From: Roridomyces roridus | Taxonomy: Eukaryota > Basidiomycota > Agaricomycetes > Agaricales > Mycenaceae | Reading direction: 5' to 3' | DNA: 64,000 bases | NCBI GenBank assembly: GCA_029378245.1 | Contig: JARKIF010000002.1 | Span: forward strand, 1,612,001-1,676,000 | Notes under the pieces: generated by a model | Databases searched by the model: none | Told to the model about the DNA's origin: nothing | Seen by the model: the letters and a program-made list of their open reading frames with translations, nothing else | Translations under genes and position numbers: made by a program | Part shown: piece after piece, positions 1,468-52,646 of the stretch | Layout of the letters: each line of letters begins with the position of its first letter | How positions within the stretch are numbered: position 1 is the first letter of the stretch

Positions 1468-2811
1468 ATGCCAAAACTCGCAGTGCACGGCGGCGCCGGA
1501 GTCCACAGCAAAAACTCAGAAGCAGAGGTCAAGGCTGCTCTTCGGCTGTGAGAAGGATTCCTTTCGCGGTGTCGCAAGCAATAAAATTGGGGCTCAGCGC
1601 ATGCACCCAAGCACTCTCAACTTGTGGAGAACCCTCAGCTTTGAATCTAGTCGAAAATGCCATCCTAGCTCTCGAAGACTCGCCTCTACTCAACGCAGGT
1701 CCGAGTGCATGCATCTGTATTGAATGGAAACGAGACAATGCTCAGGCTACGGCGCGAATCTAACCCTGGACGGCACGGTCGAGTGCGATGCTGCAATCAT
1801 GGACGGCTGCACACGCGACTTTGGCAGCGTCGGGGCCGTATCTGGTAGTTCCAACTCGACCAAACAATTATTCATGTCTGAACCTGTTCCAGGCGTCAAG
1901 AACCCGATCCGGCTAGCACGCGCCATCCTCGAGCACGCACGGGTCCCAGACGCCCTGGGACGCATTCCACCCTTGACCCTTGTCTCCGAAGGTGCCCACG
2001 CCTTTGGGCGGTCTGCCGGCGTCCAGCTCGTACCCCCAGACTCCCTAAGACCCCACGTGCACAATCGCAATGGAACACGTGGAAAGCGCGCCTGGACGGT
2101 GTGGATGCAGGGCCTGTTGACGACATGCAAGTGCTGCAGGACACGGTTGGCGCCGTGGCATGGGACCTCTCCTCTGGGACCATTGCTAGCGGAGTATCGA
2201 GCGGCGGCATCCTCCTCAAATACCCCGGCCGCGTCGGAGAGGTGGGCTCATCATATCTCTCTCTGGTTTGTTCCTCATATTCTGCCAGGCAGCTGTATTT
2301 GGCGCAGGATGCTGGGCGCAAGAGGGAATGGCGTGTGGCGTGTCAGGCGCAGGCGAGTACATCATCAAAGCGAGTCTAGCACGTTCTATCGGCCAAGCTC
2401 TTGAGCAAGGAACAGACTTGGACGTACACGCCATTCTGCAACGCGTTCTTGTCGAAGACTTTTGGAGTACGCGCAATCTTTCATGAGACCCCTTGAATTT
2501 ACGTTCATCAGAACCGAGCCGGAGTTTGACCAACCCAGATCCAAGTGCGGGGGTCTTGCTGTTGACCACCGAAGAAAATCAAGACGGCTCACCGGTGGGT
2601 ACGGCCTTTAATTATCGCCTTGCGAGGTGGACATGATATTCTAAAGGACGCTTATGGTGTGCATTCACGACCCCAAGCATGGCTATCGCCTTCGTCTCAT
2701 CTGAAAGCGCTCATCCAAAGGTTGGTCAACTTGAAGCTCATACGAAATCAGCTCAATGTTCCAGGCTCTCATCTTGCGCAGACCAAAGGAGCTCGAATCT
2801 CGTCCAAATGA
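1468..2811 (+). CDS. TASP1: Taspase-1-like threonine aspartase
   Basis: Member of the type 2 asparaginase (Ntn-hydrolase) family. These are made as a proenzyme that cuts itself before a threonine, which then becomes the nucleophile. Visible landmarks in order: start MPKLAVHGGAG, LEDSPLLNAG, CDAAIMDG, VKNPIRLARAIL, the autocleavage segment QDTVGAVAWD (nucleophile Thr codon 2143-2145), SSGGILLKYPGRVGEAAVFG, and a C-terminal strand LWCAFTTPSMAIAF. The order and the extended C-terminus fit taspase 1 better than plain L-asparaginase. I infer seven introns (the first is 1548-1597). One base appears to be missing in a run of C at 2051-2054, which breaks the frame before the active Thr. In animals taspase 1 cleaves TFIIA and MLL proteins at Gln-X-Asp-Gly. 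A TFIIA large subunit with such a site lies at 51694-52646. Confidence 0.85.
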
Positions 2812-2850
2812 CCAGCCTCGAGTTTTCATAACGGGGTTCTCTATTTGACA

Positions 2851-4229
2851 CTACAACACACTGGACAAGTCGAACACCAGCTCGCCCGGTGCCCTAGTGG
2901 CAACGCCCTTCTCCGTTACGATCGCAGTGATGAGCTCTGCCGGAGTAACGTCGAAGCTCGGGTTATAGATTCCTTTCAGGCCGGGAGGTGTTATCATTAC
3001 GGTGGCTTGCTTTGATTCGCCTTCGCTTGGATAGATTGCGCCCCGGACGAGACAGGCTTCGATGGCAGGGCGTTGTTCGATGGGAATGCTAGAAGCGGTT
3101 AAGATGGGGTTGTAGAGGTGAAATGCAGCGCGTACCCCGAGCCATCGGCAATGGCCAAATCCACAGTACTGATTGGAGCAACTACAATAAATGGGATGGA
3201 ATGTCGCGCTGCAATGACTGCTGCGTTGTAGGTTCCGATCTGTACAACTGGGTTGGAAAGAAGAATCGGAAAAGAGTGGGTGTACCTTGTTGGCGGTGTC
3301 ACCGTTCTTCGCTATTCTATCAGCTCCGACCACTGGTTTTCGGTCAGACTTGACTACCGTTTGTGTTGGATTCACCGACCGACTGCATGGATGTTGTGGT
3401 GCTGGAATAATGACCCCACCATCGTATCGCAGATCATGACCGAGGGGATATTGAGTGTTTGAAGCTCCAAAGCGGTAAGCCTGACTGGGCTCAGATTGTG
3501 AAAAAAAAAGTTTCCGAGGTGTGTACCTCGAGCCTTGGTGGTACGGCGCTGTCTGAGTATAGTATGCAGTGCCGAGTTTGCCCGTCTCATGCAGATATGT
3601 TATCAAACCCAAGGCCGTTCCGTAGCCCTAACCGATTTCTGAGAAAACAAAATGTATTCTTTGGAAAAAACACGCGTACTGAAGTCGCCAGGGATCCAGT
3701 GTTGCAGACGGTCATTAAATTGAGCCCAGTTCCACTTTCACCCTTCTGCTTGACGAGGTCGGAAAGCCATTCGCCTCCCCACTGGGACATTTTCTTGTTG
3801 CGACCGACATCCTCGTCTGCGACCAGGTGTGCCTCTGCAATGAGCTCTTCGCAGATCGCCTTGCCATCCTTGCCTGCAGCGATGGCTGCTTCAAGAGTTG
3901 CCGTCAAGCGGCGCGTCGCGTTGCCGAGATTGACTGCCGTCGGACGTGCGGTGTAAAGATGAGCCAAGACAGGCTCAACGTATGCCTTGACGGTTGTTGG
4001 GGATGCAATAAAATCGGCATTGGCTTGCACGGCGCGCGAGAGATCGGCGGCAAACGCGAGCGCCGCCAACGAGGCTATCGCAGGTGCCCCCCTAATCTTC
4101 ATGGTCTTGATGGCATCGTGTGCATCGTCTATCGAGGTTATAGGGCACGAACTCGGTGGTGTGGGGAAGTAGGAGCTGGTTAACTATCTCGATTTTGTCG
4201 CCATCGGTCTTGATAGAGATGAGTGACAT
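2851..4229 (-). CDS. MRI1: Methylthioribose-1-phosphate isomerase
   Basis: Converts methylthioribose 1-phosphate to methylthioribulose 1-phosphate in the methionine salvage pathway. It belongs to the eIF2B-alpha/beta/delta-like fold. Diagnostic stretches are MKIRGAPAIASLAAL, CNTGSLATSGYGTALG, HETGKLGTAYYTQTAPYHQG, VVGADRIAKNGDTANKIG (catalytic Asp in the GADRI motif) and IPIEQR. The ending VATRAPGELVFDLSSVL is typical. Five short introns join these blocks. The start at 4229 gives MSLISIKTDGDKIEIVNQLL, the usual N-terminus. One extra base at 4136-4137 shifts the frame at VPYN/SIDDAHDAIK and is probably an error. The gene is divergent from the lipase-like gene, with 142 bases between starts. 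Confidence 0.93.
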
Positions 4230-4371
4230 GGTCGTGGCTGTGGCAAGAGTCTCAAGCGGTGATGCAAATCGGAAGACGGCCCGATTAGGAAGTTGGCAAT
4301 TATCACATGCCTCTCAAGACTTGTACTGCTCCTCCATCTCCTGCTCCAGTCCGTCGAGGTCGTCGTGCACG
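4230..4371. promoter_or_regulatory. Divergent promoter MRI1/HSL-like lipase
   Basis: A 142-base gap between two outward-facing start codons must hold both core promoters. I see no strong TATA element. Confidence 0.4.
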
Positions 4372-7243
4372 ATGATCGACCATCTCTTTGGCCGGCCCAA
4401 CGCCTATTGGAAGCGTGCACAAGTCTTTCTCATCATCCTCTTCTGGTTTTGGCGCATTCTCAGTGGAAACCCTAGAGGCCCGCCTCTCTTGTGGTTTAGG
4501 GCCCTCAACCGCAGACTCAAACGTTTCACGCCATGGCAGTTGATTGCCACCACGCTCACCACCGTTTATATTGTACGCAACTTTGACAAGATTCTTGGTC
4601 TGCAATGTACGTCAAACTCTGCAACTCTGCACTTCGCTGCTGACCGCTGAATTCAGCACCAGAGCCTCATGCTGGCCTTGTGCGTCATCCTTGACTTCTC
4701 TTATTTCCTCCCCTCATCGTTTCACAGTACTCTCCGTCGTATTACCGTGCCACTTGGATCAACACAGGTCTCGATGCCGGCTTCGCAACAGCCATGTCTA
4801 TACGAAATAAATGGCTGCGGGATATCTGCTCCGTTCTCTTCTCCGTCTACTACATTCTCTATCCAAACCAAGCAGACGAAAAGATTCGGAGGTTCAGAGC
4901 CGTCCCAACGGTTGAAATGCTTCGTCGATGCTGGGAGAAGACTTCAAATCCATATGTGTGTTATTTTCTTTTGCCGAGACGCGTTACTCACTGAGCTTAG
5001 ATCCGCGCATTCACTGTACTGCCGCCTATCCTCATTCGCCGCAAGATCTTGCTTGCTCGACCGGCTGGGTCCACCTATGACCGACCCATAGTCGGCTATC
5101 TGTTCTTTTCCCTTCCCGAGAAGCAATTGAGCAAAGGTGGGTTGGCGGGTTATCTCAATGGAGTACCTCGCTGATTAGGTTTCAGCCACCGACCTCATCC
5201 TCGACTTTCCGGGAGGTGGTTTTGTTGCAATGTCTCCGGAACATCATGAAGAGCGTCTCCGAGCATGGGCGATCTCCACAGGCAAGCCTGTACTCGCGAT
5301 CGACTACGGCAAGGCGCCTGAGTGTATGATTGTCAATCCTATTTGCGCATACCTTTTAACGCGTTCATCCAGACCCGTATCCGTTTGCCATTGACGAAGC
5401 ATTTGATACTTACAAGCTTCTGGTTCAGTCGGGTAAGCCGTGTTCAATAACTTGCGTCTCAATCACTCAATCGTGCCCTCAGGTGGCACGGTTATTGGGA
5501 TGTCTGGCAAGAAACTCAATATCGTGCTGACCGGCGACTCTGCTGGTGCTACCATGGCAGCAAATGTCGTGTTCAAGGTTATAGAGCACAACGAGAACCC
5601 TGCAAATCGACTCTCGAATCTTCCCCAGCCCATCGCTCTTGTACTCAATTACCCGGCTTTCGACTTCAACTTTACCTCCTGGATGACACCCGATAACTTG
5701 CGCGTTCTCCGCACGGAGGAGTCTTCGGGAAACCTACCCGGCATCAAGGAATTGGCGGCTCAGAAAGACCATCTCAAGCACATAGTAGGGACACTTGTAT
5801 TCCATTCGTGATCAGGATCCTTACGCTTCCACAGAGTCCTTTGAGTATGGTAGGAGACCAACGCAGCACTCTACCCCGCCGGAAACCCCTCAAGCGGCAG
5901 CAGAGTTGGAAAGACACCATCCGCGGTTTCACCAGTGGAGAAGAAGAGTCCGCGCCAGCCGCTCCTCGGAAGAGGCGATCCACTGGTGCACTCAAGTCAC
6001 CTCCCGGCAGGCGCAGCACCTTCCTGGAGCCTCGCCATCGGCCCAAGTCGCTGGATGGAGAGAGCGCCGTTGACGAGGGCGCAACGGAATCTGACGAGGA
6101 AGACTTTAACCAGTATCGCGAGGAAGATCGGCCGCTGCAGGCCCGTGTGCGCTACGTCTACCCTCAGACGACTGTTCCGCGGAGCAAGTCTGCTGTGGTG
6201 AATGAGCAGCGTGCGTTGTCTGCGGCCGTGGAGGAGGCGAACTACAAAGGCGACGGAGCGGTACGGTGGCAAGGGCAAGCAGAAGGAGCCCATTGGGACC
6301 CGGCTGACGATGACCAGTCGGACTGGCTACTTTCAGGATAGGGTGATTACGCCCAGCATGATGCGCGCCATGGCCATCTTGTACATTGGGCCTCATCGGA
6401 ATCCCGATTTCGCAACAGATTACCACTTGTCTCCGATCCTTGCACCAAGCCACGTACTGGCGCAGTTCCCTCCAATACTTATGCAATGCGGGGAGAAGGA
6501 TCCTCTCGTGGACGACACGGTCATCTTTGCGGGCCGTGTTCGAGAGGCGAAACGAGCGCGCAAGTCCGAGTTGGATTTGCTTATTTCTGGCAAGAGCGCG
6601 CGTTTCGGGGAGAGCTTGCGGATGAGCAATGCAGAAGGACCTGTCGATATTGCGGCTTTGAAGCTCGAACGGGACAAGCTCGCCGCGCAGACTGGAGGAG
6701 GACTGGGTTCAGCTCACTATTTGGTCGGAATGGTCGCACGGATACTTGCAGATGACTGCCCTCATGGCAGAGGCGGGTGCGGTGAGTCCTTGTATGGCGT
6801 GGTGCAATGCATTTTTACTCAAACACACACTCTAGGTCATCGAGGAACTAGCCGAATGGATCGATTCTGCGTTTGAGCGATACGGAACACCGAGCAATGT
6901 ACCCAGCCGCCGGTGGGCGAGTCCGGCGAGGAAACCTATTCCCACCCCGAAAGAGAGCCTCTCTGCATCAGAAACCGAAACGGATGACAGCGGGATTACT
7001 TTCGTTCCTAGGCGGAGGTCACCCACGCAGTCCGTGGATGGCAACAGACCGTCAACGCCGGTTCGGTTGTCTGAGACGGAGACGGTGGCGGATGGCGATG
7101 GGGAGTTGCTGGTCAATGGACATGCTAGAGGGGGGAGCGATACGGATGCTGCTGGCCAGCGCCCACGGCTCGGGGGACAGATGATCTCGGAGACAGAGTT
7201 GATGCGCCGTCGTCGACTGTTAGATTCGCACATTTTTGAATGA
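4372..7243 (+). CDS. Hormone-sensitive-lipase-like alpha/beta hydrolase
   Basis: Esterase/lipase of the hormone-sensitive lipase family. The oxyanion-hole region reads DFPGGGFVAMSPEHHEERL (Pro replaces the usual first His of HGGG). The nucleophile elbow is GDSAG (Ser codon 5539-5541). The acid is in GEKDPLVDD (Asp 6499-6501) and the base in WSHGYLQ (His 6737-6739). Between nucleophile and acid lies an insertion of about 200 residues rich in Arg, Ser and acidic residues, holding kinase-type motifs such as KRQQSW. This is the place where mammalian HSL carries its regulatory module. The C-terminus is a Ser/Thr/Arg-rich tail. A hydrophobic N-terminal segment (about residues 15-25) could be a membrane anchor. 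I infer eight introns. Extra bases at 6246-6248 (run of A) and 6694-6695 (run of G) break the frame and look like errors. Confidence 0.85.
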
Positions 7244-7597
7244 GTTGCTGTATGAATATAATGTGATGGGTGTCTGGAGCGTTGTCGGCGACTAGACGTC
7301 AAACACAGCTTGCACTGCTTTCGACTGCTTCGAACAGACAGCCTTAGGGACCAATGATTGCCGCCTACAATTCCTCTGAGACATACTCAGCCCACAATCT
7401 TCTCCACTGATTCACCCGATCCCGCAGATTGGACTTGATTGACGTAGCTGACGGTGAGCGGTAGTTATGGCACCAGGGTCCTTGAAGAAATAAATGGCAC
7501 GAGTTGTCTTGCTGTTGCGGGATGGCATATTGATGGACGACAAAGCTGAACAAATATTCCCGGCTTTGAACCTCACAGCCACGCCGCCAATCCGCCA
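7244..7597. other. Intergenic, no feature seen
   Basis: A 354-base gap between a same-strand pair. It must contain the lipase 3' end and the promoter of the zinc-finger gene. I see no open reading frame or repeat worth calling. Confidence 0.5.
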
Positions 7598-8561
7598 ATG
7601 TCTGCTACGGCCCCTCCCCAGCAGCTTTACCACATAATGTATCCCAATCCCAACCCGACACCCATACCCATGCATGGTCCAGCAACCCACCCCGAGGGAC
7701 CCCAGGAATACGTCGCTCCTCCACTCGACATGAAGCAGGAACCTCCCCAGTACTACCAACCCACTGCTGCCGAGCTTTATAGAAGCACCCAGGGCGGAAG
7801 GCTGCCCTCTCCTGGTCCGGACTGGTCCCGGTGCCAACCACTATCCCTCGGCCGAACGGTGTCCCGCGACTTCCTCCCATACTGCAGGTCGAGAAGCAGC
7901 AGGTGACTACGTCGGCGACCCAAATCGCGAGTGCTAGCAGACGTCGTAACGAGGCGCACTTTGTCTGCCCCGTTCCCAATTGTGGTAGTACGTTTACTCG
8001 TCGGTTTCAATCTGAGAGGTGCGTTTGTTGTGATGTGATCGCATTTGCTCTCGTGCTCATGCAATCCAGGCCATCTGCGTTCGCACACGGAAGAACGCCC
8101 GTATATCTGCGAATGGCCGAATTGCAAGAAGGGTTTTGCTCGTCAACATGACTGCAAGTAAGCATCCTTCGAGTCATGTTTTAGTTTCCGTGACCGTGTC
8201 TTACCTACCGTTTTCGCAGGCGTCATCAAGCACTGCACACTGCTAAATCGCAAACCAACGTCTGTGTCGGTTGTAAGAAGACGTTCAGTCGTCTGGATGC
8301 CCTCAATGTACGTCCTCTTTTTCATTGTCTTCGGGACGCGCGTTAACGTCACCCGCAGAGACACTGTATGCTGTTTTCGGTTCATTGCCCGAGACGGACT
8401 AACGGATTTATCCAGTGCGTTCTGATGGTGGGGCCGAGTGCCGTGCTTTGAGAGACCAGCTGCAGCAACAGCAGGGAGGGAGTACTGCGCCAGACGACGG
8501 TGTAGTCGAGGCACCGATGGAGCCAGCCGCCCCCGCAGTAGGACCCACAGAACGACGTTAA
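7598..8561 (+). CDS. C2H2 zinc-finger transcription factor
   Basis: Small nuclear DNA-binding protein. A Pro/Gln-rich N-terminus of about 100 residues is followed by two classical fingers of C-x4-C-x12-H-x3-H form (CPVPNCGSTF...HLRSH and CEWPNCKKGF...HQALH). A third, imperfect finger (CVGCKKTF...HLRSDGGAEC) has Cys where the last His should be. The C-terminus is Gln-rich and ends in Pro/Ala. Four short introns sit inside the finger region. Two probable single-base errors occur: a missing G at 7819-7820 and an extra T at 8005-8007 in the first finger. I cannot name an orthologue. The target genes are unknown. Confidence 0.8.
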
Positions 8562-8646
8562 AGCCTAAAGCTCGATAATTGTAGTCTTACTTCTTGAACC
8601 TGTGATTATATCCGGCTATTACTGTATCTTTTTGCCTTTCCCCGTC

Positions 8647-11092
8647 ATGGCGCTGCCTCTACTCGTGAACAACGCCGACTGCGGGCCTTCCAACCCTCTC
8701 CAGGGCCTCTCCAAGCGCTTCGATCAGGACAGAGGCTTGCAGCAGGACCACTTTGGTGCAGGCCGTGCCGGGTCATCGAGAGAGGTGTGGCCACAGTTCG
8801 ATCCGCAAGCTCTTCCTGAAACCAAGTCCCACAGGCTTTTCGCAGCCAGCAATCTGCGCCGTCCGGGTCAGCTCAAGAGGCAGCTCGTTTCTTTTCCTCT
8901 GGACCGGCACCACAACTTGCAGGCGCCTCTGCTTTTGATCTATCTGCCCTCAATGGATCGTTACCGCTGGCGCAAATGCCCCTTCAGCAGCAGTCGCACG
9001 GACCTGCAGCCTGGGCGGCCGACTTTATGATCCAACGGCCGCAACAAACCAGCAGCAATAGCAGCTCTCAGGTAGAAATGCAGCGCGAAGTGAATGTGCC
9101 GCAAGGTCGACAGCATTTGTTATCGCCGACGCAGCCCTCGCTGATGCCTACTCTTCAGGCCAATGGAATCCCATGTTTTCGTCTTATGCTCAGCGACCAA
9201 TGCAGAACTTTATGCCTCCGATGATGATGCAGCAGCAACCGCAGAGACCAGCAACCCAACACGACCGTTCGTACAACTCCCATAGCACCATGGGTTATGC
9301 TAAACTCTCGCAGAGATACAGTGGGATCGAGAATTCAATGAGATCTCTCAAGCGGTCAAGGAAGAGCCCGTAACCTCGCAAATCCCACAAGACCCACAAC
9401 AGGCGTCGCGCGAGGCTGACGAGCTAGCGCGTACAGCAGGGTTATTGTTGGATACCGTCGGCGAAGCCCAAAATACCAAATTCGCAAAAAGCGAATTTAT
9501 GGAGCTCATGCGTGGTCTGCGGGATCGGAATATCGTGGTGGAAGGAAACGAGATGGTGCAGAACACGGGGCAGAGCTCTGCGTCAGGCTGGGCAAGCGAT
9601 TTCAAGGCGGATGTCAAGGGTAAAGGGAGAGCTGTAGACCCCCTTGTTGGTGGTGCGAGCACATCGTTCGCAGCAATGACGAGGGCGAGGCTGGCGGAGC
9701 AACCTCAGCAGGAGCCTTTATTGGACGAGGACCCCAACGACGCGTACTTTAGACAAGATAACGCGGAATACCAGCGGTATTGGGCCGAAGCTAATGACCG
9801 CGCATCCACGTCGCAGCATCCTGCGACTAATGCAGAATGGGACCGACTGCAGGAAGACTGGGATAACTTTGAGGCCACTGCTACTGGTATCCAACCGGTT
9901 GAACGGTACATTTTCCAGCCGAACAATCCCTACCTGTCCGATAGGCCGTCATCCACGACGAGACACCACCTCTCGCACAACGTCCGGCAGCCCTTCCTCG
10001 ATGTGAGGTGCTCTTGCATGAGGATCTATCATTACTAATCCTGCGCAGAGCGTACTCGAGCTCGAAGCAGCTGTACAGCGCAACATGACCGACGCCTCTG
10101 CGTGGTTTGATCTCGGTGTCAAACAACAAGCAAACGAGCGCGAGAAACAGGCGTTGGCGGCACTCTCGCGTGCGGTGGAGCTGGATCCATCCCACCTCCC
10201 TGCATGGCTCGCACTGGCCATCTCACACACGAACGATGGCAATCGCGAGGCGACGCATGACGCTATCCGGAATTGGGTGGACCGGAACGAGCGTTACAAT
10301 GGATGCTGTGGCGCAGTACAAGGCGAGCCACCCGGAGAGCGTGACCGCGTCCATGCCGGAACGGTTCGGGAGCTTGATCCAGTGTCTGATCAACATGGCG
10401 CGGAGCGACGCGGGCAACATTGATGCCGATATCCAGATCGCGTTGGCCGTTCTGCTGAATACCAACGAGGACTATGCGAAAAGCAGCAGGATTGTTTCAG
10501 GACCTGCCCTCGCCGTCCGGCCTGACGTGCGTTATTCTATCCAAAGTTTATCTACTCGACCTCATTTTTCCTAGGATTGGTTGTTGTACAATCGCGTCGG
10601 TGCGACGATGGCGAACAGTGGTAGGGCGGAAGAGGCTCTGCAATACTACCACAAGGCCCTCGAGCTGAATCCCTTGTATATCCGAGCGAGGTGGGCTTGT
10701 TGTGACCTTGCTCGAGTTGACCTAACCAACGGCAGATTCAACCTCGGTATTCTCGTGTATAAATCTCCGCGTAAGGGTTTTCCTTTCTCTCATTTGTTAC
10801 AATTGCTGAGTTGGCTTCTCAGCGGTTCGAGGAGGCCTCACACCACATCCTGGATGCCCTTAGGCTACAGGAGAGCGACGGTCTATCTTATGGGAACGAT
10901 GCAGCAGGTTCGAGCGGAGTGACAACGACCGCGCTGTGGGATAGCCTGAGGACAGCCTCGATGCACATGCAGCGCCCAGATTTGGCCACATTCTGCGACC
11001 AACGGGATCTTGAAGGCAAGTATACATCCACAAAGCACCGCGCGCCCAAACTGACCGATTCTGCAGCCTTCCGAAGCAACTTTCAGTTCTGA
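8647..11092 (+). CDS. PEX5: Peroxisomal targeting signal 1 receptor PEX5
   Basis: Cycling receptor that carries PTS1 cargo to the peroxisome. The N-terminus ADCGPSNPLQGLSKRFDQDR holds the conserved Cys used for export ubiquitination. The disordered N-half has Trp-x3-Phe/Tyr docking motifs (WAADF, WDREF, WASDF) and a Gln/Met-rich segment. The C-half is TPR repeats: SVLELEAAVQRN, AWFDLGVKQQANEREKQALA, LLYNRVGATMANSGRAEEAL, and the LQYYHKALELNP and FEEASHHILDALRLQ blocks. It ends in CDQRDLEAFRSNFQF. I infer six introns, the last (11016-11066) with a GC donor. About six single-base indels interrupt the frame (near 9171, 9308, 10298, 10480, 10508 and 10752). The surrounding protein is strongly conserved, so I read them as consensus errors. 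Confidence 0.93.
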
Positions 11093-11236
11093 GTGGGGAG
11101 CATTGGTCAAGAATTCATTTGCATCTACAGAATAAAGTAAAGGCTGCAGGAGGTTATTGATACATTGAGCTGCTAATGGCAGCGACTTGGAATCGAATCG
11201 GATAAAGTTAAAAAGACAGGAAACCCGAAGAAGACA

Positions 11237-14200
11237 TCATTGCAGATAAATCGTCTGCACTTCTGATAGATGAAAGGGTTGATTGCAGGCCGGACATTTG
11301 CGTTGCCGCGTTGTTAGCCGTGCGTCCACGCAGGATCGGCAGAAAGCTGCAATCAAATGAGCGGCCGGAATAAAGTAGCCACGGGACACCCACTGTGCAT
11401 GCATTTCGTGAGGACAGTATTCCGGAACTCGGCGCCTTTGCACGCAGTGCACTTGAGCACGTTCTGGCAACATAGTCATTATGTGCGACCCTGAAGTAAG
11501 CTTCCAGACTCACCAGCGTCTGCTTGAGTTCCATTTCCAGTTCTGCTTCTCTCGACGACGCAGTGCCCGTCGACCTCTCCTGCAATTTGGCCGTCTGCTT
11601 CTCGAACTGTTTCTTCGTCAACGACAACTCCTCCGTCAGCTTCTGCAGCTCCGTCTTCTTCTGAAGCAAATCCTGATCGCGTTCCATGTAAAGTGTCCGT
11701 AACTAGAGGCCGATTAGCTCTGAGATTCTCTTCTTTTACGAGAAAAAAAATACCTCGCCGCTTCTCTTGATTTCTGCTTCCTGCAAGACCTTGAGCTCTT
11801 TGTATTCTCGTCGGAGAGCACCAAACTCCATAACGGTCGACTCGAATTGTTTGCGGGTAGCGCCAAGATCTTTCTCGAGGTTGAGCACCTGCGCAGAGAG
11901 ACCTCGTTCCGATTCCACCAAGCGCTCGACAGCCTTGCCTTGCTTTTCAAGATTCCGGCTGAGATTCTTGCGCTCGTTTTCCACAGCCTCCTTGTCCCGC
12001 ATGGCAGCGAAAAATTTGTTCTCAGATTTCGCTTTCTGCCAGACATCTCAGTCAAAAGCACAGAAAGAAGGGTCGCGTGACGCACATCAAGACCACTCTT
12101 GACAACCCGATCCTCCATCTCTTTCAGCTCGAAGACCTTGCTCTTCACTTGCCGATCTAGGGCCTCCCAAGCGGCGGACAGTTGATCCAGTTCGCTGAAC
12201 ACAGGGGCCTTGTCCTGGTTGTGCTGGGCGTCAATTAAACGAAGCCTCTTGATCTCATCCTCCTGCTCCCGGAGTTTCTCTGCCAGCTGCGCCACATCGG
12301 GAGGAAGGGTTGAGAGATCCCCGAAAGTGCTCTCATACTTTTCCAATTTGGCGGTGGCTTCTGCCAACTTTTGCAGAGCATTCGCTTCGGCCTCCATGTG
12401 TTGTACAACATTCGGATGGTCATCTTGGAAGATGGAGAGCGTCTGATCGACAGCAGCGGCTCGTTGCTCCGCAGTCCTTTCCGTACGTCAATCACAGAAT
12501 AGAAACACACGACCAAAAAACGTACGTGACTCGGTTCTTCAAATCCTCAATGTACGCCATATCCTCGAGTTGGCCGGTGAAAAAGAAGTGCATCAAATCC
12601 TCGTTTCCTGCTTGCGCCGCCAACTGAGCCTTGTGTCGGCTCAATTGGGACTCGAGCACCGCGATACGACCCTGCGTAGACGTCAATATGGCGAGTCACC
12701 AGTCAAAGAACGGGACTTGCTGAACGGGTTTCGGCCAGTGACTGGAGCTCTTTCATGGAAGCAAGTTTGACGCTATCTTTTTGCTTGCGCTCATTGAGTT
12801 CTGCGGCCTGCTGCTCCCGTTGATCACGAAGTCGCGCGTTCTCGGTGTCGCGTTTGGCGATGAGTGTTTTGAGCTCTACGTTTACGTGACTGGCCTCGGC
12901 CTGCCAGATCGAGTTAATGTGGGTGCCGCAAAGCTCGCGTCATCACGCACCTCTACAACGTCTTGCCACTGTTGCCGCGACTCGAGGGCAGATTGAAGCT
13001 CGCCAGAGATGCGAGTATTTTCCGCTTGAGTCTCCGAAAGCGCGTTCATTAAATAGGAAGCGTGGTCGAGGAGAACCTTGTAATGCGGAGTCTGGGAAAT
13101 GAATTCCTGCGACGGGGCTTTCGACTGAAAGGGACCGTTGTGAATTGATTAATGGACCGACTGGGGGCGACTTACGTCCAAAGTAAGCGTCCCATTGACA
13201 GCAGTGAGTTCTGCGATCTCTTTTCGCAAATCTGCAACTTCCTTCTCCCGCAACTCTAATAAATGTTGGCGCTCGTCCCAGTGCATCAAGCCGGTGTGAC
13301 CGTTAGCAGACGGGGGAGGGGCAGGAAGCTAATTGCGCATTAGAAAGGGAGAAAAATGCATTAGAATCACTCTTACAAATTAACCAGACCACTCACTGCA
13401 GGAGAGGATGGCTTTTTCTGCTCCTCCGTCCCTTCGTGTGGCGAGTCCGGCATGACTGGCTCCGACCGTTGCTTGACTGCGATGACCGTATTGCTACGCA
13501 GTCGGTCTGCAGCATTCTCAGCGGCAAGGAGTTGCTCGTGGTACCGGGACTTTTGGTCTTCTGAATCTCGTAGTTTTCGATTTAGTAATTGCATCTCGGA
13601 CCGCAACGCAGCACACTGTGCATATAAATTGGTTGACGAAATGCAGCCAGAAGCTTGCCAACGTACCTCAGTTTGCGCCTTCTGACAACGCGTATATGCA
13701 TCCCCTCCCGACACTCGCGATGCATTGCCAAGGCTGACAAATTTAGTCACAAGATTTCGCGTGGCGTTCATATTGTCTTCGAGAGCGGAGACGAGGTCGG
13801 GCGCGTCGTCGTCGGAAATGTGGGACGATAGGTCAAAGATGTCTATTGGAAGGATCAGATTGGAGTGCGAATAGAGTGAAAGGCGTGCCTTGGGTGTTGG
13901 GAGAATTAGGCGGCAGGTCTTCCGGTTTGGCCAACAACCGAATGGCCTCCACCAGCTGAAAAATGGCGTCAACGACAGCACCCAGAGGCGCAAAAGGGCA
14001 CGAACCTGGCTCCAACACGCCGCCATTGCCGCCAGACCAGCCTCGCACGCATTTTTCCTTCTCTCGAGCTCGATGATGCGACTCTGGCTCCGGTCGTGTT
14101 CTCGCGAATAATGCTTCATCCGCCTATAAATGGCTTCTTTGCGGAACATCTAGGAGAGGTGAGCTGAGGTAGATACGAAGAGCTGGGCGCGAAATACCTC

Positions 14201-14341
14201 GAGGTTGTCAAGGTCCGCCGGTTCCTCCGACTCGGGAGCTGAGCCATTGACATACGGGGCGCCATTAGCACCAGCGAGGATCCGTTTTTTTGAGACGGAG
14301 ACGCTGGCTTCCTGGGCATGGGGCCGCTTTTTGGACTCCAT
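11237..14341 (-). CDS. BRE1: E3 ubiquitin ligase BRE1 (histone H2B)
   Basis: RING E3 that with RAD6 monoubiquitinates histone H2B during transcription. The N-terminus MESKKRPHAQEAS leads to the conserved block LFRKEAIYRRMKHYSREHDR, used for RAD6 and chromatin contacts in the family. Most of the protein is long coiled coil rich in Glu, Lys, Gln and Leu. The C-terminal RING reads LKCTACKGAEFRNTVLTKC, then MHTFCRSCVDARLTTRQRKC and PACNQPF, with the usual ending VQTIYLQ. About ten short introns break the gene, including one inside the RING between MH and TFC. It converges on PEX5 with a 144-base gap between stops. Confidence 0.93.
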
Positions 14342-14419
14342 CGAGGATATGAACAAGAGAGAGGTGGAAGTGCGATAAACAGTCACAAAGTGACAAGAAC
14401 AACTCTCAATTGATCGGCT

Positions 14420-22529: not shown

Positions 22530-22592
22530 ATTTGTATATTAATCCATGTATTACATTTCCCTGTAATACTGGCAGTAGAGCGACCATACTTT

Positions 22593-39735: not shown

Positions 39736-40303
39736 TGATTCCGAGTCGAGTCCAGAGTAGTGTCGAGTGTGCTTTCGCGTTCTTTGCTTGCCTACAAGTC
39801 CCTTCCCAACCTTGTTAGATTTCGAGATATCCGACAGCGTACTGCGGAGAGTTCCAAGGAGCGCGCCGAATCTCTGAGCAACACGTTGATTGCGGAGGTC
39901 GTCGTTTGAGCAGGTCCCTGTTTATTTCAAGGCCAGTTGGAACTGATGTTTCCCTAGTTCGTAAGAAATTCCGCAAGTTTTTATCCGCCAATACGCCGGA
40001 CGACAAATGTTCTGCCCCCAGTTCGACGTGCAAATGGTCCTTTTCCTCATCCGTGCGGCGTGCTTTCGTTCTTCAATAGTCGCATGGTACTCACATTTTA
40101 CCAGAGACAAAAGCCATTCTTGCTCATGAACGGTTCTTTACTTTGTCTTGCATTCGCGATAGAGTTGAGGTTGTCCTGAATGGGGTCAGCGCTCCGGATG
40201 AAGCGGATTTTTTGAAGTTAATAGTCTGTATCGCCACTGATCGGCTATCACGTTTTTTGACTTTGTCCTGAACTCTCAACTGAGCTACACAAGAGCGATC
40301 CTA
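39736..40303. other. Unassigned coding-like fragments
   Basis: On the + strand there are open stretches with protein-like composition: VRFRDIRQRTAESSKERAES near 39815-39880, LVRKKFRKFLSANTPDD near 39955-40010 and ERFFTLSCIRDRVEVVLNGV near 40130-40190. They lie in different frames and do not join by clear splice sites. They may be the far side of the gene seen between the repeat arms, or a decayed gene. Confidence 0.3.
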
Positions 40304-42854: not shown

Positions 42855-43054
42855 CTCAAAGTTTAAACTTGTATGCAGCGTACCTTGGGCAAAGGTCTAT
42901 AAAAGTACATGCGGGTGGGTATTCAAACGGAGTGAGTGATTGTCCAGAATGTCTGAGCATGAGTGTGGATGGATGGATGGATGGAATGCAGATGGCAATG
43001 TTCGAATGAATACAATGTTTAAGTTGGAGCAGCCCCAGTGAGATACCAGTTTCT

Positions 43055-44572
43055 CTAGCAGAAAACCTGTTTCCACCAGAGGAGGAAGCGCGTCCACCAG
43101 CCTCCCTCCCAGTCGTCACTCCGCTGGAGGGAGGTCACCCGCATGGTACCTGTACCAAAATTCAGGGACCTGTCCTCCCCAGGACCCTCTTCGATGTCCT
43201 TCTGCGCTACCGCATCGGGAAAACGCGGCATCGTGCGACGCGTAATGAAGGACGGGAAGACCGTGAGGAGAACGATGTACTCGGGATTGGGAAGATCCGG
43301 AGACGTCCATATCCGCATGAATTCCTCGTCCCCGTCCTCAAACGTGTCGTCTTCAGCAGCAGCGTAATAAGCCGCATTTGAAACCGGTGTTTCGTCTGTG
43401 GTCGGCGTGACGAGCATGGTGGAGGATACGGAGGCCGGAGACGACGAGAGGGAGGTGGAGAGTACCGGAGTGTCCAGGAAGGGATCACTAGGTGCACGAG
43501 CGCGTTTCGGCTGGGGCGTGGCGCGTTGAGAGGATAAGGGTTGAGACTTTGAACGGGAATGGACCGTGGGCGATGGGACATCGAAATTCGAGGCGCACGA
43601 GACTCGCTTGGAGGAAGCAGTTTCCGTAAAGGCGAGGACACCTTTGAGGATATCAATAGCCTCGATCATGAATTCCTTGCCGCTATAATAGAATGTGTGA
43701 GATGTAGCGCCGAACGCAACTATTATGACTTGCCCAGTTTCTCTCAAAACGGCGTCGTCAAATTCCCACTCGATCCTGTTCCGGCCAGCGCCACCAATGC
43801 CCTCTGGGACGATCTGAAGTCGCATGAGGGCCCACACTGCGGAATTTCAACTCTCCAAAACATTTGATCATGTATTATTTACGCACGGGCTTGGAAGAAA
43901 GGTTGGGGGCCTGGCATGCCCATTGTGCACCAAGTCCGAACGAACCGCTCGAATCGCTCGAACCGTTCTGCATATTGTCAGATTACCTTACCTCCGCAGT
44001 AAATATTGAATTAGCATACCCTTCTTCGCCACGTTTCCTCGCGGATTCGCACGCGCATGAGGCAGCAGCGACCCGCCAGGCTGCGTTGCACTGAGGTGTG
44101 CCCGAAATTCCGCAGTGCGCCGGGCGTTCACGGAGCGGTGGTAAGCTGATCGGACTGAGGCTTGCAATCGCGAATACGGTGCTCGGTGAGATGAGGGCAG
44201 ATTCGCGAGCGTCTGCGTCATTAGACGGCCAGCGTTTTCGTCCTGGTCAAAGTAAAACTGTCGACAGTATTCCGTGAAATGCTCCAGTTCACTGGTCGTG
44301 ACGCCGGAGGGAGTTGCGGAACGATTCCGATGGCCGCTGGGGGACGGAGTGGGCCTGCCATTTATCGGAGTGCGAGAACGGCCAAAGGTAGGGGATGTCG
44401 GGGACGTGAGCCTTGACCTGCTGGGAGAGCGAGGGCTGGTTGGCTTGCGCGGACTCGTCGGAGGCGACATGGCGGGGAGATTGTAGAGAAGAGGTTCAGA
44501 GATGACGGAGGAATTATAAGACGACTTGTCCACCTGAAGAGGTGGTGGACGAGTTTGCAGACGATAGGACAT
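43055..44572 (-). CDS. Conserved basidiomycete hypothetical protein
   Basis: No known function. The N-terminus has a Ser/Pro/Arg-rich disordered segment (SPPTSPRKPTSPRSPSRSR). A folded part follows: TSELEHFTEYCRQFYFDQDE, RLQASVRSAYHRSVNARRTA, then across introns ERFERFERFVRTWCTMGMPG, QPFFQALWALMRLQIVPEGI and GGAGRNRIEWEFDDAVL. The C-half is Ser/Thr/Pro-rich with an acidic patch (AAAEDDTFEDGDEEF) and a Trp-rich end (GGWWTRFLLWWKQ). Two introns near 43810-44010 join all blocks without a frame break. I recall similar architecture only from Agaricomycete proteomes; function unknown. Confidence 0.75.
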
Positions 44573-44945
44573 GGGAAAGAGAGTGCGTGCGCCGACGAGG
44601 GCAGAGACAGACGTGGGCTGAGGATCAAACCACTACCACCTTGCCGATGCCGCGGCTCAAATTTTACTCTTACTTGCTTACTTGTGGGTCCCGAGAATTG
44701 GTTGTCACTCCCACCGACCTGGGCATTTCATTATCGCGCGTCGTACGCGACACGCGTCCCAATCAATCTTCTCACCGCGAGCTCAAAACTGGAGAGTACC
44801 CATCTATGTATGTATGTACATACTCATTTGTTGGCCACGGCAGTCCAAATTCTGCAAGGAAGCACCACTCTTCTTTCGGCCTTTTTTGTTGCTAGACAGT
44901 CACCTCGCAGCACTCTCTCTGCCCGTTGGGTCGTGCTCTACAGCT
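44573..44945. other. Intergenic, no feature seen
   Basis: About 370 bases upstream of the preceding gene. Open frames here are short and lack protein-like composition. Contains a TATGTATGTA stretch (about 44808-44817). Confidence 0.4.
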
Positions 44946-45592
44946 TCACCTCTGGTCATCATCACACACGGAATGCCGACGGGCTCCTTCATCGCTTGAC
45001 ACCAAGTATTCTATTCCTGCCATCTTACGTTGATTTAGAGCGAGTTTGAGGCATTCCGCAGTTCTTTCTTGGAATTCTTCTGTCGAGTTTCCAAGTAGAC
45101 GTCCGATGCGGCTCCTTTGTCCCTGCACGACGACAATCCTCGGGGAGCGTCGCGTCGCGGCTTCTCCATGGCCATGTGGGTGTTGCGTCATGAAGATACT
45201 CTCCGCAATAGGCACTAATTTCCAGCAATTGCTTGAATCTCCGTGTCAGCCCAGAGATCGTACCTATCAGAGGTCGAGTAGGATAACGTCACTCTGGAAA
45301 TGCTTCCGTCTGGTCGAGGCTGGGTTGCCAGCTCGAGCACGGTGAGCCAGGACCCTTGTTGTGGACATATGGGACGGGGACTAGGACTGTGGAAATGCAA
45401 AAACGGAGGCATTTCTGGAGAGATCATAGAAGAGGCGGTAGTTACCGCGCAGAAACGGTTGCAGAGATGGGATCTAAACCCGTCCAGAATTGAGCCATAA
45501 GGACATGAGAGTCCGGGAAGAGGGTCTGTCTCGGAGCGGTAGGATATCGAATAGCCAGAAAACCGACAAGTTGGTAGATCATATGTCCCCAA
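44946..45592 (-). CDS. Possible hypothetical protein (low confidence)
   Basis: Two minus-strand frames look coding: SWLTVLELATQPRPDGSISR (about 45283-45345) and RIGRLLGNSTEEFQERTAEC (about 45055-45115). A well-formed candidate intron (GTACGATCTC ... GAAATTAG, about 45215-45264) would join the first block to a different frame (SAYCGEYLHDATPTWPW), while a single missing base would join it to the second. I cannot decide between them, and no family is recognised. It could also be non-coding sequence upstream of the CSL gene. Confidence 0.25.
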
Positions 45593-45671
45593 GCCTGACA
45601 GCGGCCGAGAGTGTACTTGTTATAAAGACAGAGACTTGTCTTCTGCGCGCTCGAGCGAGCGTCCGTGCCAA

Positions 45672-48600
45672 ATGAACTCGACCTCTTCTCGTCCCTCCAC
45701 AGACCCGAGAAGCTGGGACCTTGCCGACATCCTCAATCCTTCTTCAGCCCCCCCGCGCATCGACCCCGCTCGTGAGCGCAAAATGTCCCTCGACTTTCCC
45801 CACTCGCAGCACCCCATGTACGGCCAGAACGACCTCGACTCGGCTTTCAACGGCCACCCAGATGGCCGCCCTCACCACCCACAGCATTTTGACCAAGAAG
45901 GCTAGTCGATTACCGCGTCTTGTTCGCGCTTCTCGGCTGAACGAGTTGTCCAGGCCATCCCTTTGACTCTAGGTACCGCACCAATGCTTCTTCCTCGTCC
46001 TCTCTGGGCCCCCCGAACTTTGGCCTTAACGGTGACGGCATGTATCACTCGGGCTTCCCCCCGGACGCGTCTTTTCCCCAAAACCCGAATCCCTACGACA
46101 TTCCCAGCCTTCCTTCGTCCTACAACAGTGGCAAGGTCTCGCCGCTCACTCCCACAGACCCGGTGGGCGGCATACATCACCCGTCTCCGTTCGCCAAGGA
46201 CTACCCTCCCAGCTACCAGGATATTGGCGACCGTCGCATGTCCAATGTCGGTTCTGGCGACTACCCCGGCTTTGGTGACGAATACTCGTTTACGCCCTCC
46301 CACTTCCCCTCCGACCGTCTGCCACCGCGTTTTCCGCATGACAACCGGTTCAACCCACCGTCGCACATGAACGGCCATGACTCGGACCTCATGCGAAGCG
46401 TTGCACCCGGGGCGACCCATGCGACGTACAGACCCGACAACGGTCCATACGGCGACAGCCCCATGCCTTACATGCCCGGCCAAGGATCAGACATGGGCCC
46501 CCCGCCAACTGTCGCTGCAACGCTACGGGAACTCCGACTTCACAACCCAGACATGGGCGACCTCCACACGTTTATGCGGCCGATCCTCGAGCAATACACG
46601 CGGACGCCCAACCGTCTTGCCTTTGGCGAACGCACGGTGATCGTCATGTCCAGCAAAGTAGCGCAAAAATCCTACGGGACCGAAAAACGGTTCGTATGCT
46701 ATCCGTATGAACAGAACCATTAATTCATTTCCGCAGCTTCCTGTGCCCGCCCCCCACAGCCATCATGATTGGCAACTCGTGGTGGTCAGAGGTCAATCGG
46801 CGTGGAGAAGAACCCAAGCTCTGCCCTCCGCGCGTTGTGGTCTCGATTTCCGGAGAGCCAGTTCCTCAAGAAGGGTCCATCGAGTGGACGGGGTCGTCGG
46901 GCAAGTCATTTGATATCAGTGATCCGCCCTCTGGCACCACGTACACTGGTCGCTGCGTCGGCAAGCAGCTCTTCATCTCTGATGTGGACGAGAAGAAGAA
47001 AAAGGTCGAGGCGCTCGTCAAGATCACCGCGCCTGCAACAGACGACGAGCCGGAGCGCATTATTGGCACTTTCCCCAGTCGGCCCATCAAGGTGATCAGC
47101 AAGCCTAGCAAGAAACGGCAAAGCGCCAAGAACCTTGAACGTAAGTTGCAAGTGGACCAGCCCGTCGTTTGACTGACTCGTTATCCAGTCTGCATCAACC
47201 ACGGGTCGACGATATCCCTGTTCCATCGCTTGCGTTCGCAGACTGTGTCTACCAAATACCTGTGTGTTTCTGGTTCCGGGTCTTCCTTCAAAGGCTCGGA
47301 CGGTGCACCCCTTTTGGGTTTGGATCAGCGTGCCCGATCTACCACGCCGTCCTTCATCGCAAGAACTGCCAGCTGGGGTTTGTTTCCTTTTGGAATGCAG
47401 AGACCCACATTAATCACCGAAATTTAGATCCATTCGTCATGTACATCGTGGATGTAAACAAACCAGCCGGGGGCATTGATGCACCACCGCCTCCACCGCC
47501 CCAGCACGACTATCCCTCACCCCCTCCAAATGCCATCCCCTTCTCGAACAATGGCTCGCAGATCCCGATTTACTACAATCAGACCGTGGTTCTGCAATGC
47601 CTCACTTCTGGAGTGGTCAGTCCCGTCCTGATCATTCGCAAAGTCGACCATCAGACCACGGTTGTCGGTGGTGGTCTGCAAGAGGGCGCCAAAGGTGTCG
47701 CAGACCACTACTGCGCTCCTGCGGAAGTTTGCGGAGATCCTGTCTCTCAATTGCATAAAATTGCATTTGAGGTTTACGATGGTGCGCGTGCGATGCCTGA
47801 ACCAGGAACTCCGGGGACGTCCGGTGCTTTCCTGTCCTGCATGGGTGAAAAGGTTAATACCTATCGGCCCATTGACGGGCGGCAATGGAACGGTGCCATG
47901 AACGGATCCAACTCGCCTACGATGCCGGGCTCGCCAATGTCTGCGGGGCCGTCGGGTGGAGAATATTTCCACCCATCGACTGGCAGTGCGCCGACGTCGC
48001 CTTCGGCATCGCCGGACTTTTTGTCCAATGATGGCGGGCGTGTGCGCAAACCCAAGCGTGGCACGACGAGTGCAGGGGGTGGAATCGCCAAGAATGTCCC
48101 CAAGGGTGGACGGCGTCGTCCTAGCTCAGCAGGTTCCGTGACGTCGACTCGGCGAGGATCAGGGAGCGACTCTGGTATCGCTTCCGGCGCGCTCTGGCAG
48201 GTCGATATTGGTGAAACCAGCGTTTGGACCATCGTCGGGACCGGTGAGTGCCCATTTCTTGGCTTTGTTTTATAAAGGTATTTAACATCCACCTCAGACC
48301 AAGTGCGGTACAACTTTTACATCCCCCCTGCCCTTTTCGACAGCCCGAATGCGTCGCCCATTCCCTCGAAACCCATCACCCCGTTCCCCGGGCTTGTGAA
48401 ATATCTGCCGCCCGACCGTGCTGCCGAGGCACCGAAGCATCATGCCGCCGCTGCGCGTTCAGTGCTGTCGAAGCCGAACCCGCATGCCTCCAAGATGCTG
48501 ACGGTGTATGGGGAGAACTTTTCCAAGACGGACCCCGTCTCTGTCTTCTTTGGCGCAGAGCCTTCGCCCTTCGTCGAGGTACGCTGCAACGAGGTGCTCG

Positions 48601-48698
48601 GATGTTTGCCGCCCGAGTCCCACTCGCAGAAGCGCCGGCCGCTTATCCTCGTTCGCTCAGACGGTGTTGTGTTCCCGTCAAACGTGTATTACCCTTGA
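45672..48698 (+). CDS. CSL-family transcription factor (CBF1/Su(H)/LAG-1 type)
   Basis: Fungal member of the CSL DNA-binding family (related to fission yeast Cbf11/Cbf12). After a long disordered Pro/Ser-rich N-terminus comes the LAG1/RHR-N domain: EKRFLCPPPTAIMIGNSWWS, then RVVVSISGEPVPQEGSIEWT and GRCVGKQLFISDVDEKKKK. The beta-trefoil domain includes INHGSTISLFHRLRSQTVST, SSFKGSDGAPLLGLDQ and IYYNQTVVLQCLTSGVVSPV, then AFEVYDGARAMPEPG. A C-terminal TIG-like domain has LTVYGENFSKTDPVSVFFGA and ends VRSDGVVFPSNVYYP. An unusual Gly/Ser/Arg-rich insertion (about 47880-48170) interrupts the trefoil. The junction near 45905 is unclear: either a GC donor or a one-base error. No Notch pathway exists in fungi; known roles are in adhesion and cell separation. 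Confidence 0.9.
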
Positions 48699-48898
48699 TC
48701 CCGCCTGTCGATTGTTTTTGCGCGTACTAGGTTTTCTGGTCGTCCTTTATTGTTTTGGGCGCTACTATGTTGTCTGCTGTGCTGTTGCGCTATAGTCTCT
48801 AATGTGTATGTCTAGTGGCGGATGGAATAGGACAATCATTCGTCAGATTTGCGTGTGTGATGTAATTCAGAACTTGTCATCTTTCTTCTGCTTCCTCC

Positions 48899-49580
48899 AT
48901 GGACCTTCACACAACGGTGGCCTCGCTGCCGCAGGCGCTGTGGAATCTCTATGTCGAGCATTTGTGGAACTGGACCGACCATCCTTCCTCGTGGATTTCG
49001 CGCATTGCATATACTGCCCGCGTTCTTTCCATCTTGCTGATTCTGCCTCTGGTTATCTTGATCTTGCTGGTATGCCCTCGAATCCCAACCTTTCTTTCCG
49101 GGAGTCAATGAATAATAGGACATTGCGTCCTATGGAATCGCGCGGACGTTGGGTGTCATTGACGATGTGAAGGCTTCGACCAGCGACAAGGAGACGATAC
49201 ACAATAAAGAAGGCCCGCTCGTGCACATTTACGAGACTTCGCCCACACCGACGCTCAGCAGCTCTGCATCCATACCGGACTCGGGCAGGGACACGGACAC
49301 TGAGCCCCAGTCACAGTCCGAGTTGAGCAGCAGCTCAGACAGCCTTGCACCACTACCGCGCCTCACGATCCCTTCCGACTCGGAGGAACCGCGCACGTAC
49401 TTTACAGAAAATAGCTCGCAGCTATCAGGAGCTGGTGTCTTCTCGCCAGCTGCATCCAGACCCCCGTCACCGACCATCACGAGAAGAGCGTTGCCGGTCG
49501 AAGACAAACTGGTGGACTCGGACGAGGGAATCACGTTGAGGAAGAGAGGGAAAGCACTGAGCGCTCCCCAGGACGACTGA
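48899..49580 (+). CDS. Small single-pass membrane protein
   Basis: About 210 residues, function unknown. One hydrophobic segment (VLSILLILPLVILILLDIAS, about residues 45-64), crossed by the single intron, separates a short N-terminus with several Trp residues from a long Ser/Pro/Asp-rich tail. The tail holds many Ser/Thr-Pro sites and ends in basic LRKRGKALSAPQDD. The segment SYGIARTLGVIDD after the membrane helix looks conserved in Agaricomycetes as far as I recall. It converges with ESA1; stops lie 41 bases apart. Confidence 0.7.
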
Positions 49581-49621
49581 ATGAAATTATCATGCTACTG
49601 TATTATCCGTTGTAATGTACA

Positions 49622-51474
<1,853 letters not shown>

Positions 51475-51693
51475 GGCGCTTTGTTTCTCTTCTCCTGCTC
51501 GATGACTCGACGACTGGCTGACAAATCAATTGATCTCTCTTCGCGGGCAAGCTTTTATGGCCATTCCAGATATTATATACAGGTAGTAGAGAGATGGTAA
51601 GCTTTAGAATGGAATGCGGACAGGTAAAGATGCAGATGGATGGGAGCAGACAGAGATGATGTTTAAAAGCAAAAGGAAATGGTACTTGGGTGA

Positions 51694-52646
51694 TTACACC
51701 CAATCGAACTCGCTGTACACTCGTTAGGAAACGCGGAGAGTGGAGATGGTTGCACGAACCCTGTACACCTCGAGAAGAGGTAGTCTTTCCCGTTTGCATG
51801 GATCATACCATCTTTGAGAACACACTTCCATTTGCTCTTGACCCGCGCAACCTGGGAAAGAATGAGCACAAGGCTAGCAAACTCTGAAGACCACAGCGTA
51901 CCTTGTCGTACGTGCAAAACACAATGTCAGTATTGGCTCCAGCGCCATCCTCCAAGTCCTCGTCGTCGTCTTCAGAGTCGTCCAAGTCGCTATTGATCGC
52001 TTCCGAATCAACGGGAGCGGTGGACGAAGTAGACGCAACCGGTGGCTGCGGCAAAGACGGATGCGATGTGCGTGGAGCATACATCGCAGGAGGAGGTGTC
52101 GCAGAATCATCCGAGTCTTCCGAAGGCCCATCGACCTGAGGGATATTCGGACGGCCTTGGGACGGAAAGGAGAGGACGCTCGTTTGACCTCCAGGGTTTG
52201 GCCTCGCAGCGCCGTTGATTTTTGGTCCAGGGAGCGGTGGCAGCGTGTAGTTGGCCGCGTTCAGCATGTACCTCGCATCCATGGGCTCAGATTTGACCTG
52301 GGACTGCTGCTGGGGCAGCTGAGGAGGAGGCGGAGGCGGTGCGTAGGAGTGATGGACTGCAGCGTATTGAGGCATCATCTGCATGGTATGGGGCGGGAAG
52401 TGGGGCTGGGGTGCCTCGTTGCTGCTATTGAACTCTGCGACGTGAGACTCCATGATTTTCGTCTCCCACTTCTATGCTCGCAGAGGCCAGTTGAAGACGG
52501 TCCAAGGAGGAGAATGAGTGACTTACATGCTGGAGCTCGACGAGGACGTCCTCCGAGACGCCAAAGTCTTCGAATTCGCCTTTAATCGACGCAATAACGT
52601 CGTCTATCACCGTCCGATAGATGGTGGGCACTATTTTATTCGACAT
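51694..52646 (-). CDS. TOA1: TFIIA large subunit TOA1 with taspase-type site
   Basis: Large (alpha-beta) subunit of TFIIA, which stabilises TBP on DNA. The N-terminal four-helix-bundle part is VPTIYRTVIDDVIASIKGEF and EDFGVSEDVLVELQ. The middle is a Pro/Gln-rich linker, then acidic (SDLDDSEDDDEDLEDGAG). The C-terminal beta-barrel part is DIVFCTYDKVARVKSKWKCV, then LKDGMIHANGKDYLFSRC and TGEFDWV. In the linker sits PQVDGPSEDSDD (QVDG codons at 52127-52138), matching the taspase-1 cleavage core Gln-Val-Asp/Gly with downstream acidic residues. The animal TFIIA precursor is cut at such a site. Three introns. The start at 52646 gives MSNKIV and the usual helix 1. Confidence 0.93.
52127..52138 (-). 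other. Predicted taspase cleavage site in TOA1 (QVD/G)
   Basis: Codons CAG GTC GAT GGG encode Gln-Val-Asp-Gly, followed by Pro-Ser-Glu-Asp-Ser-Asp-Asp. The animal taspase 1 consensus is Gln, hydrophobic, Asp, then Gly and acidic residues. The site lies between the two structured halves of TOA1, as in animal TFIIA. Cleavage here is prediction. Confidence 0.65.

Follow-up and report, generated by a model that had tools for sequence, protein, structure and literature searches.

A Taspase1-type protease gene and a predicted cleavage site in the TFIIA large subunit of the mushroom Roridomyces roridus, with corresponding sites in six fungal lineages

A 64,000-nucleotide stretch of the genome of Roridomyces roridus, an agaricomycete in the Mycenaceae (hereafter the window; bases 1612001-1676000 of contig JARKIF010000002.1, or C112, from an assembly of 90.8 Mb in 501 contigs, second copies among them) contains a gene for a taspase-1-type threonine aspartase and the TOA1 gene, which encodes the large (alpha/beta) subunit of the general transcription factor TFIIA. 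These two genes probably encode a protease and its substrate, with TOA1 predicted from its sequence to be cut once, after Asp154. The basis in hand for this reading consists of the genes themselves, the subfamily and catalytic residues of the enzyme, the fold of a relative, and the conservation of the site. Human TFIIA and the TOA1s of six fungal lineages carry the motif Gln-x-Asp-Gly (Q-x-D-G) in the linker; Saccharomyces cerevisiae lacks it. The six are agaricomycetes, Mucoromycotina, Mortierellales, Coemansia, Daldinia and Lipomyces, and the motif is doubled in all but the first. The known animal system is thereby extended to fungi, and what is new is the form with two sites; no paper on the cutting of TFIIA by a fungal taspase was found among the open-licence literature.

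The proposed mechanism begins with the proenzyme, which would cut itself between Asp and Thr (LQD/TVGAV) and so free the Thr as the N-terminal nucleophile of the beta subunit. The mature alpha/beta enzyme would then cut the linker of the TFIIA large subunit once after Asp154 (IPQVD/GPSEDSDD). Two products are predicted: residues 1-154 would form an alpha-like fragment that contains the N-terminal helices, and residues 155-266 a beta-like fragment that contains the acidic stretch together with the C-terminal domain. By analogy with animals, both fragments may stay joined through the small subunit, and the cut might conceivably affect TFIIA turnover or promoter choice.

The coordinates given for TOA1 by the first-pass annotation of this DNA (51694-52646) are exact, and the gene lies on the - strand with four exons coding for 266 amino acids. 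The public R. roridus protein P0121 is identical to the window TOA1 over the aligned part and matches PF03153, the N- and C-terminal domains of which are found in P0121 and also in the relative P0122. Residues 150-158 read IPQVDGPSE, with QVDG followed by PSEDSDDS, and the site fits the published pattern of P3 Gln, P2 Ile/Leu/Val/Phe, P1 Asp and P1' Gly (available parts of PMC3102056 and PMC3343046). The annotation had described a QVDG followed by acidic residues in the linker; the motif stands (52127-52138) and acids are present, but they are not the acids that the human enzyme needs. The window TOA1, with its site present, is not of the S. cerevisiae type of TFIIA, which has no Q-x-D-G.

The conservation of the site was evaluated in a set of 172 fungal TOA1s, none dropped, of which 149 are agaricomycete-like (a class that includes unnamed metagenome sequences assigned by similarity) and 23 come from other fungi. 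Q-x-D-G is present in 172/172 (149/149 and 23/23). It occurs in all of the best 120 of 888 matches to a TOA1 query, and since that query itself contained the motif, a second query was built from the conserved TOA1 ends without the linker; Q-x-D-G is again found in all of the best 120 of 1984 matches, 52 of which are new. The Gln, Asp and Gly of the site are 100% conserved in the 149 agaricomycete-like sequences, where the mean linker column is conserved at 61%, and at least one Q-x-D-G arises in 2.7% of shuffles of these linkers, compared to 149/149 of the real ones. The P2 position varies: among 153 agaricomycete-like sites, a count that excludes QEDG matches lying in the acidic stretch, it is V in 113, L in 18, T in 15, A in 6 and G in 1. 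A second, tandem site is present in 4/149 of these TOA1s. The human enzyme tolerates no exchange of P3 Gln, P1 Asp or P1' Gly, while P2' is free (available part of PMC3102056), so the three residues that are invariant in the fungal site are the three that are indispensable to that enzyme.

A DNA pattern for IPQ-hydrophobic-DG yields 18 matches in the whole genome versus 15 for the reversed control, which is near chance, and it is therefore the place of the site in TOA1 and its conservation there that carry the weight. Twelve of the matches were fetched, and the one in TOA1 lies in a frame of 222 residues, while the other 11 lie in frames of 8-125. The pattern was also considered as a route to other substrates and was rejected, the count being near that of the reversed control in what is a search by genome pattern rather than a proteome search. 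One of the fetched matches (L023, - strand) encodes IPQVDGAIDDD in an 83-residue frame, and the same matched letters occur on another contig too; it is the only fetched match outside TOA1 with acids directly after the motif.

The 23 other TOA1s comprise 13 from Mucoromycotina, one that is Mucoromycotina-like, two from Mortierellales, three from Coemansia, three from Daldinia and one from Lipomyces; the placements of Lipomyces and Daldinia caldariorum were looked up. All 23 carry two Q-x-D-G sites, 29-87 residues apart, and one Coemansia sequence carries a third; two or more such sites arise by shuffling in 0.75% of cases. Site 1 is mostly [IL]PQNDGA.D, with an Asn at P2 that falls outside the human rule, and site 2 is I.Q[LV]DG..DD. 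When 26 fungal TOA1s, including three from agaricomycetes, are aligned, no variation is seen in the Q, D and G of site 2 or in the stretch SDLDD, and the single agaricomycete site aligns with site 2 of the other fungi. The human QVDG aligns with fungal site 2 in three MAFFT modes.

In a structure model of the Halteromyces TOA1, of low confidence overall (predicted local distance difference test score, pLDDT, 55.9; predicted template modelling score, pTM, 0.28), helices at 212-231 and 260-275, with block means of 75-81, lie between the sites, and the stretches that contain the two sites score below 50. The model suggests that double cutting would free a small helical segment of TFIIA, a picture that may not hold in Coemansia, where the segment between the sites is shorter (gap 29-52). 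In Mucoromycotina the inter-site segment often starts with TTEEID or similar. The agaricomycete site corresponds to site 2 of the two-site fungi and was probably already present in the common ancestor of animals and fungi. The comparison of sequences indicates that TFIIA cutting probably predates the animal-fungal split and was lost in baker's yeast. A more detailed history is plausible at slightly under even chances: taspase processing of TFIIA would be ancestral to animals and fungi, the fungal ancestor would have cut TFIIA twice, the agaricomycetes would have retained only the downstream site, with its P' side and the enzyme changing together, and S. cerevisiae would have lost both sites.

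Taspase and TOA1 can also be compared across species. The matches listed for the two proteins have 48 species in common, with Sparassis and Termitomyces matched by genus only because the two lists name different species, and the site is present in the TOA1s of 48/48. These listings bear only on the side of presence in the survey of taspase against QVDG that the first-pass annotation proposed, and its side of absence consists of the yeast Toa1 only. S. cerevisiae is not known to have a taspase gene. Q-x-D-G is absent from its Toa1, of which all 286 residues were checked in the PDB sequence. This protein is said not to be processed (available part of PMC4513858), in agreement with the annotation's statement that budding yeast TFIIA is not cut. 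In Pseudogymnoascus destructans (Pezizomycotina), one line of a table in PMC5810475, in the part available, gives TASP1_HUMAN as the best Swissprot match of a gene. Taspase and TOA1 are about 49 kb apart in the window, and they lie on contigs of equal size in 26/48 species (contig size being that of the longest contig of a cluster), compared to 2-4 expected if the genes were placed at random in genomes of 30-60 Mb. Linkage was nevertheless set aside as functional evidence, since ordinary large-scale synteny is uncontrolled in this comparison and could explain it.

The taspase gene, as obtained by splice-site modelling, starts with the ATG at 1468, ends with the stop codon at 2846-2848 and is divided into eight exons by introns of 44-50 bases. 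The first-pass annotation had placed it at 1468-2811; the gene, its strand and its start are retained, while its end moves to 2848, the stop at 2811 being in another frame. The closest public match is a Roridomyces roridus protein with 97% identity, and PF01112 is matched both by the window enzyme and by its public counterpart P0001. Asp precedes the catalytic Thr in 110/110 parsed sequences of the 120 fungal taspase matches listed, and likewise in the window, where the Thr codon is predicted by sequence comparison to encode the catalytic nucleophile, the counterpart of human Thr234. Glu is found in 108/110 of the same parsed sequences where the human GRVGQ has Gln. In a tree of 19 rows, one of them animal, in which several branches are long and some outgroup rows partial, the fungal taspases and animal Taspase1 are set apart from the asparaginases by a split with support 100/99. 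The structure model of a relative, P0002, has the type 2 asparaginase-family N-terminal nucleophile (Ntn) hydrolase fold, and Taspase1 ranks ahead of the asparaginases by score, by fold and in the tree. Tree, residues, scores and the modelled fold of this relative place the window enzyme with Taspase1 and not with the asparaginases.

Several observations weigh against the reading of the two genes as protease and substrate, and the first concerns the window's own taspase allele, the coding sequence of which is interrupted by a frame break near 2047-2050. The flanks of the break, PPDSL and TPRAQSQW, are stretches common to taspase relatives. No plausible intron was seen by eye in exon 4 near this position, and no donor/acceptor pair of the right length modulo 3 retained the conserved segment; the sole fits to the break, a 20-base gap or the loss of the whole segment, were both rejected. 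The public model P0001 skips the break by dropping codons just upstream and shows a gap there. The assembly includes a second haplotype contig, C315, whose taspase copy is 99% identical over the gene and has no frame shift, so the allele on the window contig is broken or misassembled and an intact copy is present in the assembly. It is a separate question whether the window taspase is a null allele, with processing either relying on the other haplotype or dispensable. The presence of the break on one contig and its absence from the other are what such an allele would produce, but the difference may be an assembly error, and the splice sites, the remainder of the gene and the 99% identity give no further sign of decay; we consider a null allele rather unlikely, though a real contender.

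A second observation concerns the alpha-C-terminal loop of the enzyme. In human Taspase1 this loop carries a nuclear signal; inspection by eye revealed no such signal in its fungal counterpart, which has about 50 residues, shows its own conservation among fungi and contains helices of lower confidence in the model, and the known Taspase1 loop sequence is not recognisable in it by eye. The loop has been called conserved among Taspase1 homologues of 32 species (available part of PMC4790943).

The remaining points concern the site itself. Human Taspase1 requires an Asp in at least one of the positions P3' and P4', is impaired by Glu there, and rejects Ala at P2 (available part of PMC3102056). The window site has Pro at P2', Ser at P3' and Glu at P4', with Asp only at P5', and it thus departs from the human rule. 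The 153 agaricomycete-like sites mostly share this arrangement, with Pro at P2' in 148, Ser at P3' in 145, and Ser in 65, Glu in 62 and Asp in 15 at P4'; the Asp that the human enzyme needs is present in 15/153 of them, and any acid at P3' or P4' in 77/153. The P2 residue is T, A or G in 22/153, and in the other fungi it is Asn in 17/46 sites, all of them site 1 by listing. Given that most of the sites lack the human P' residues, the mushroom enzyme, if it cuts, must differ from the human one in its P' preference. In addition, the linker stretches RTSHPSLPQP and INSDLDD are also conserved in agaricomycetes, and because the linker is conserved beyond the site, conservation alone is no proof of cutting.

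These features would be expected if IPQxDG instead served to bind a TFIIA partner, whether left uncut or cut by another protease, and the taspase had other substrates: the Pro-Ser after the agaricomycete site is conserved, just 15 of the 153 sites have Asp at P3' or P4', and the neighbouring linker stretches are likewise conserved. A binding motif, however, leaves unexplained why the invariant residues are the three that a taspase cannot do without while P2 varies, and why the motif occurs in tandem in 4/149 agaricomycete-like TOA1s and twice in all 23 of the others. In those other fungi, moreover, Asp is found at P3' or P4' in 39/46 sites (P3' 9, P4' 37, both 7), and any acid in 42/46, and the site aligns with the human one. 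We consider the binding motif improbable. The claim of the first-pass annotation that enzyme and site together predict TFIIA processing in basidiomycetes is, as a prediction from sequence, supported by the membership of the enzyme in Taspase1 and by the site in 149/149 and 23/23 TOA1s; it is weakened by the P' residues, and its scope is wider than basidiomycetes.

An alternative in which the window enzyme is simply a type 2 asparaginase or isoaspartyl peptidase, with no relation to the QVDG of TOA1, is very improbable. Most public entries do carry the name "asparaginase" or "nucleophile aminohydrolase", and PF01112 takes in both kinds of enzyme, but the tree, residues, scores and fold all point to Taspase1, the taspase of C. 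elegans was likewise annotated as an L-asparaginase (available part of PMC5940137), and the R. roridus genome holds a separate asparaginase with Gly-Thr and STGG.

The coordinates of both genes and of their features are collected in Table 1. The genome also contains a TOA1 paralogue on two contigs (C1 and C484), with 71-73% identity across the C-terminal domain; the linker reads IPQTDGPA in each copy, and the C1 copy has one stop inside the matched stretch. Mycena species have second TOA1 copies with a QTDG site (P0174, P0270, P0284). A match to the TFIIA C-terminal domain, at 29 bits, was seen in the end stretch of a 915-residue PWWP-domain protein (PDB 9hd7, chain P). Of the neighbouring frames, named by eye, the one adjoining TOA1 (50328-51335, - strand) reads like a chromodomain plus a MYST-type acetyltransferase of the Esa1/Tip60 type, and the one adjoining the taspase gene (2851-3627, - strand) resembles methylthioribose-1-phosphate isomerase.

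Table 1. Positions in the window of the taspase and TOA1 genes and of their predicted functional features.
Feature	Position	Strand	Basis or remark
Taspase-1-type threonine aspartase gene	1468..2848	+	Splice-site model, PF01112, best public match
Taspase exons 1-8	1468-1547, 1598-1698, 1746-1844, 1893-2241, 2289-2466, 2512-2598, 2647-2720, 2765-2848 (including stop)	+	
Single frame break, taspase exon 4	about 2047..2050	+	Between PPDSL and TPRAQSQW stretches
Predicted Asp-Thr autocleavage site	2140..2145	+	Comparison with relatives; Thr codon 2143-2145
Taspase-type core SSGGILLKYPGRVG	2197..2238	+	Read from sequence; asparaginases have STGG..NK..GR.G instead
TOA1, TFIIA large (alpha/beta) subunit gene, 266 aa	51694..52646	-	Exon model, public protein P0121
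TOA1 exons	52646-52527, 52471-51902, 51851-51760, 51712-51694	-	
Gln-Val-Asp-Gly codons, residues 152-155	52127..52138	-	Predicted cut after Asp154

What animals gain by cutting a general transcription factor is not settled: they contain TFIIA in both the cut and the uncut form, and cleavage has been called not necessary for activity (available part of PMC10886972). If mushrooms, moulds and a yeast relative such as Lipomyces retain the cut, then it would be an old part of transcription that was lost by the standard model budding yeast, and, if the pairing of protease and substrate is true, the cut could be studied in fungi amenable to genetics, where a single enzyme and a single site are involved. 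The assignment to Taspase1 also corrects public annotations in which such proteases are named asparaginases.

Among the known systems, human ASRGL1, E. coli EcAIII and the Roridomyces asparaginase share PF01112 with the window enzyme, and those with solved structures share its fold, but they differ in having Gly before the catalytic Thr, STGG, and Asp in GRxGD. S. cerevisiae Toa1 is the orthologous TFIIA large subunit and resembles the fungal TOA1s in its SELDDSDDD stretch and its C-terminal domain. In C. elegans, the pair TASP-1/PQN-51 consists of a taspase that bears the asparaginase annotation and a TFIIA with an aligned QMDG; it is an animal system, the available part of PMC5940137 mentions no two-site arrangement, and the substrates of TASP-1 are there called not yet known. 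The closest parallel in detail is the human pair TASP1/GTF2A1. TASP1 belongs to the same protease subfamily as the fungal enzyme and has the same Asp-Thr autocleavage and SSGG core, but it has Gln in GRVGQ, where the fungal enzyme has Glu, and, as judged by eye, a different alpha-C-terminal loop. GTF2A1, like fungal TOA1, has a QVDG in its linker, upstream of the acidic stretch and at an aligned position, and the agaricomycete site differs from it by the P-Q before and the P-S after the core and, for the most part, by having no Asp at P3' or P4'.

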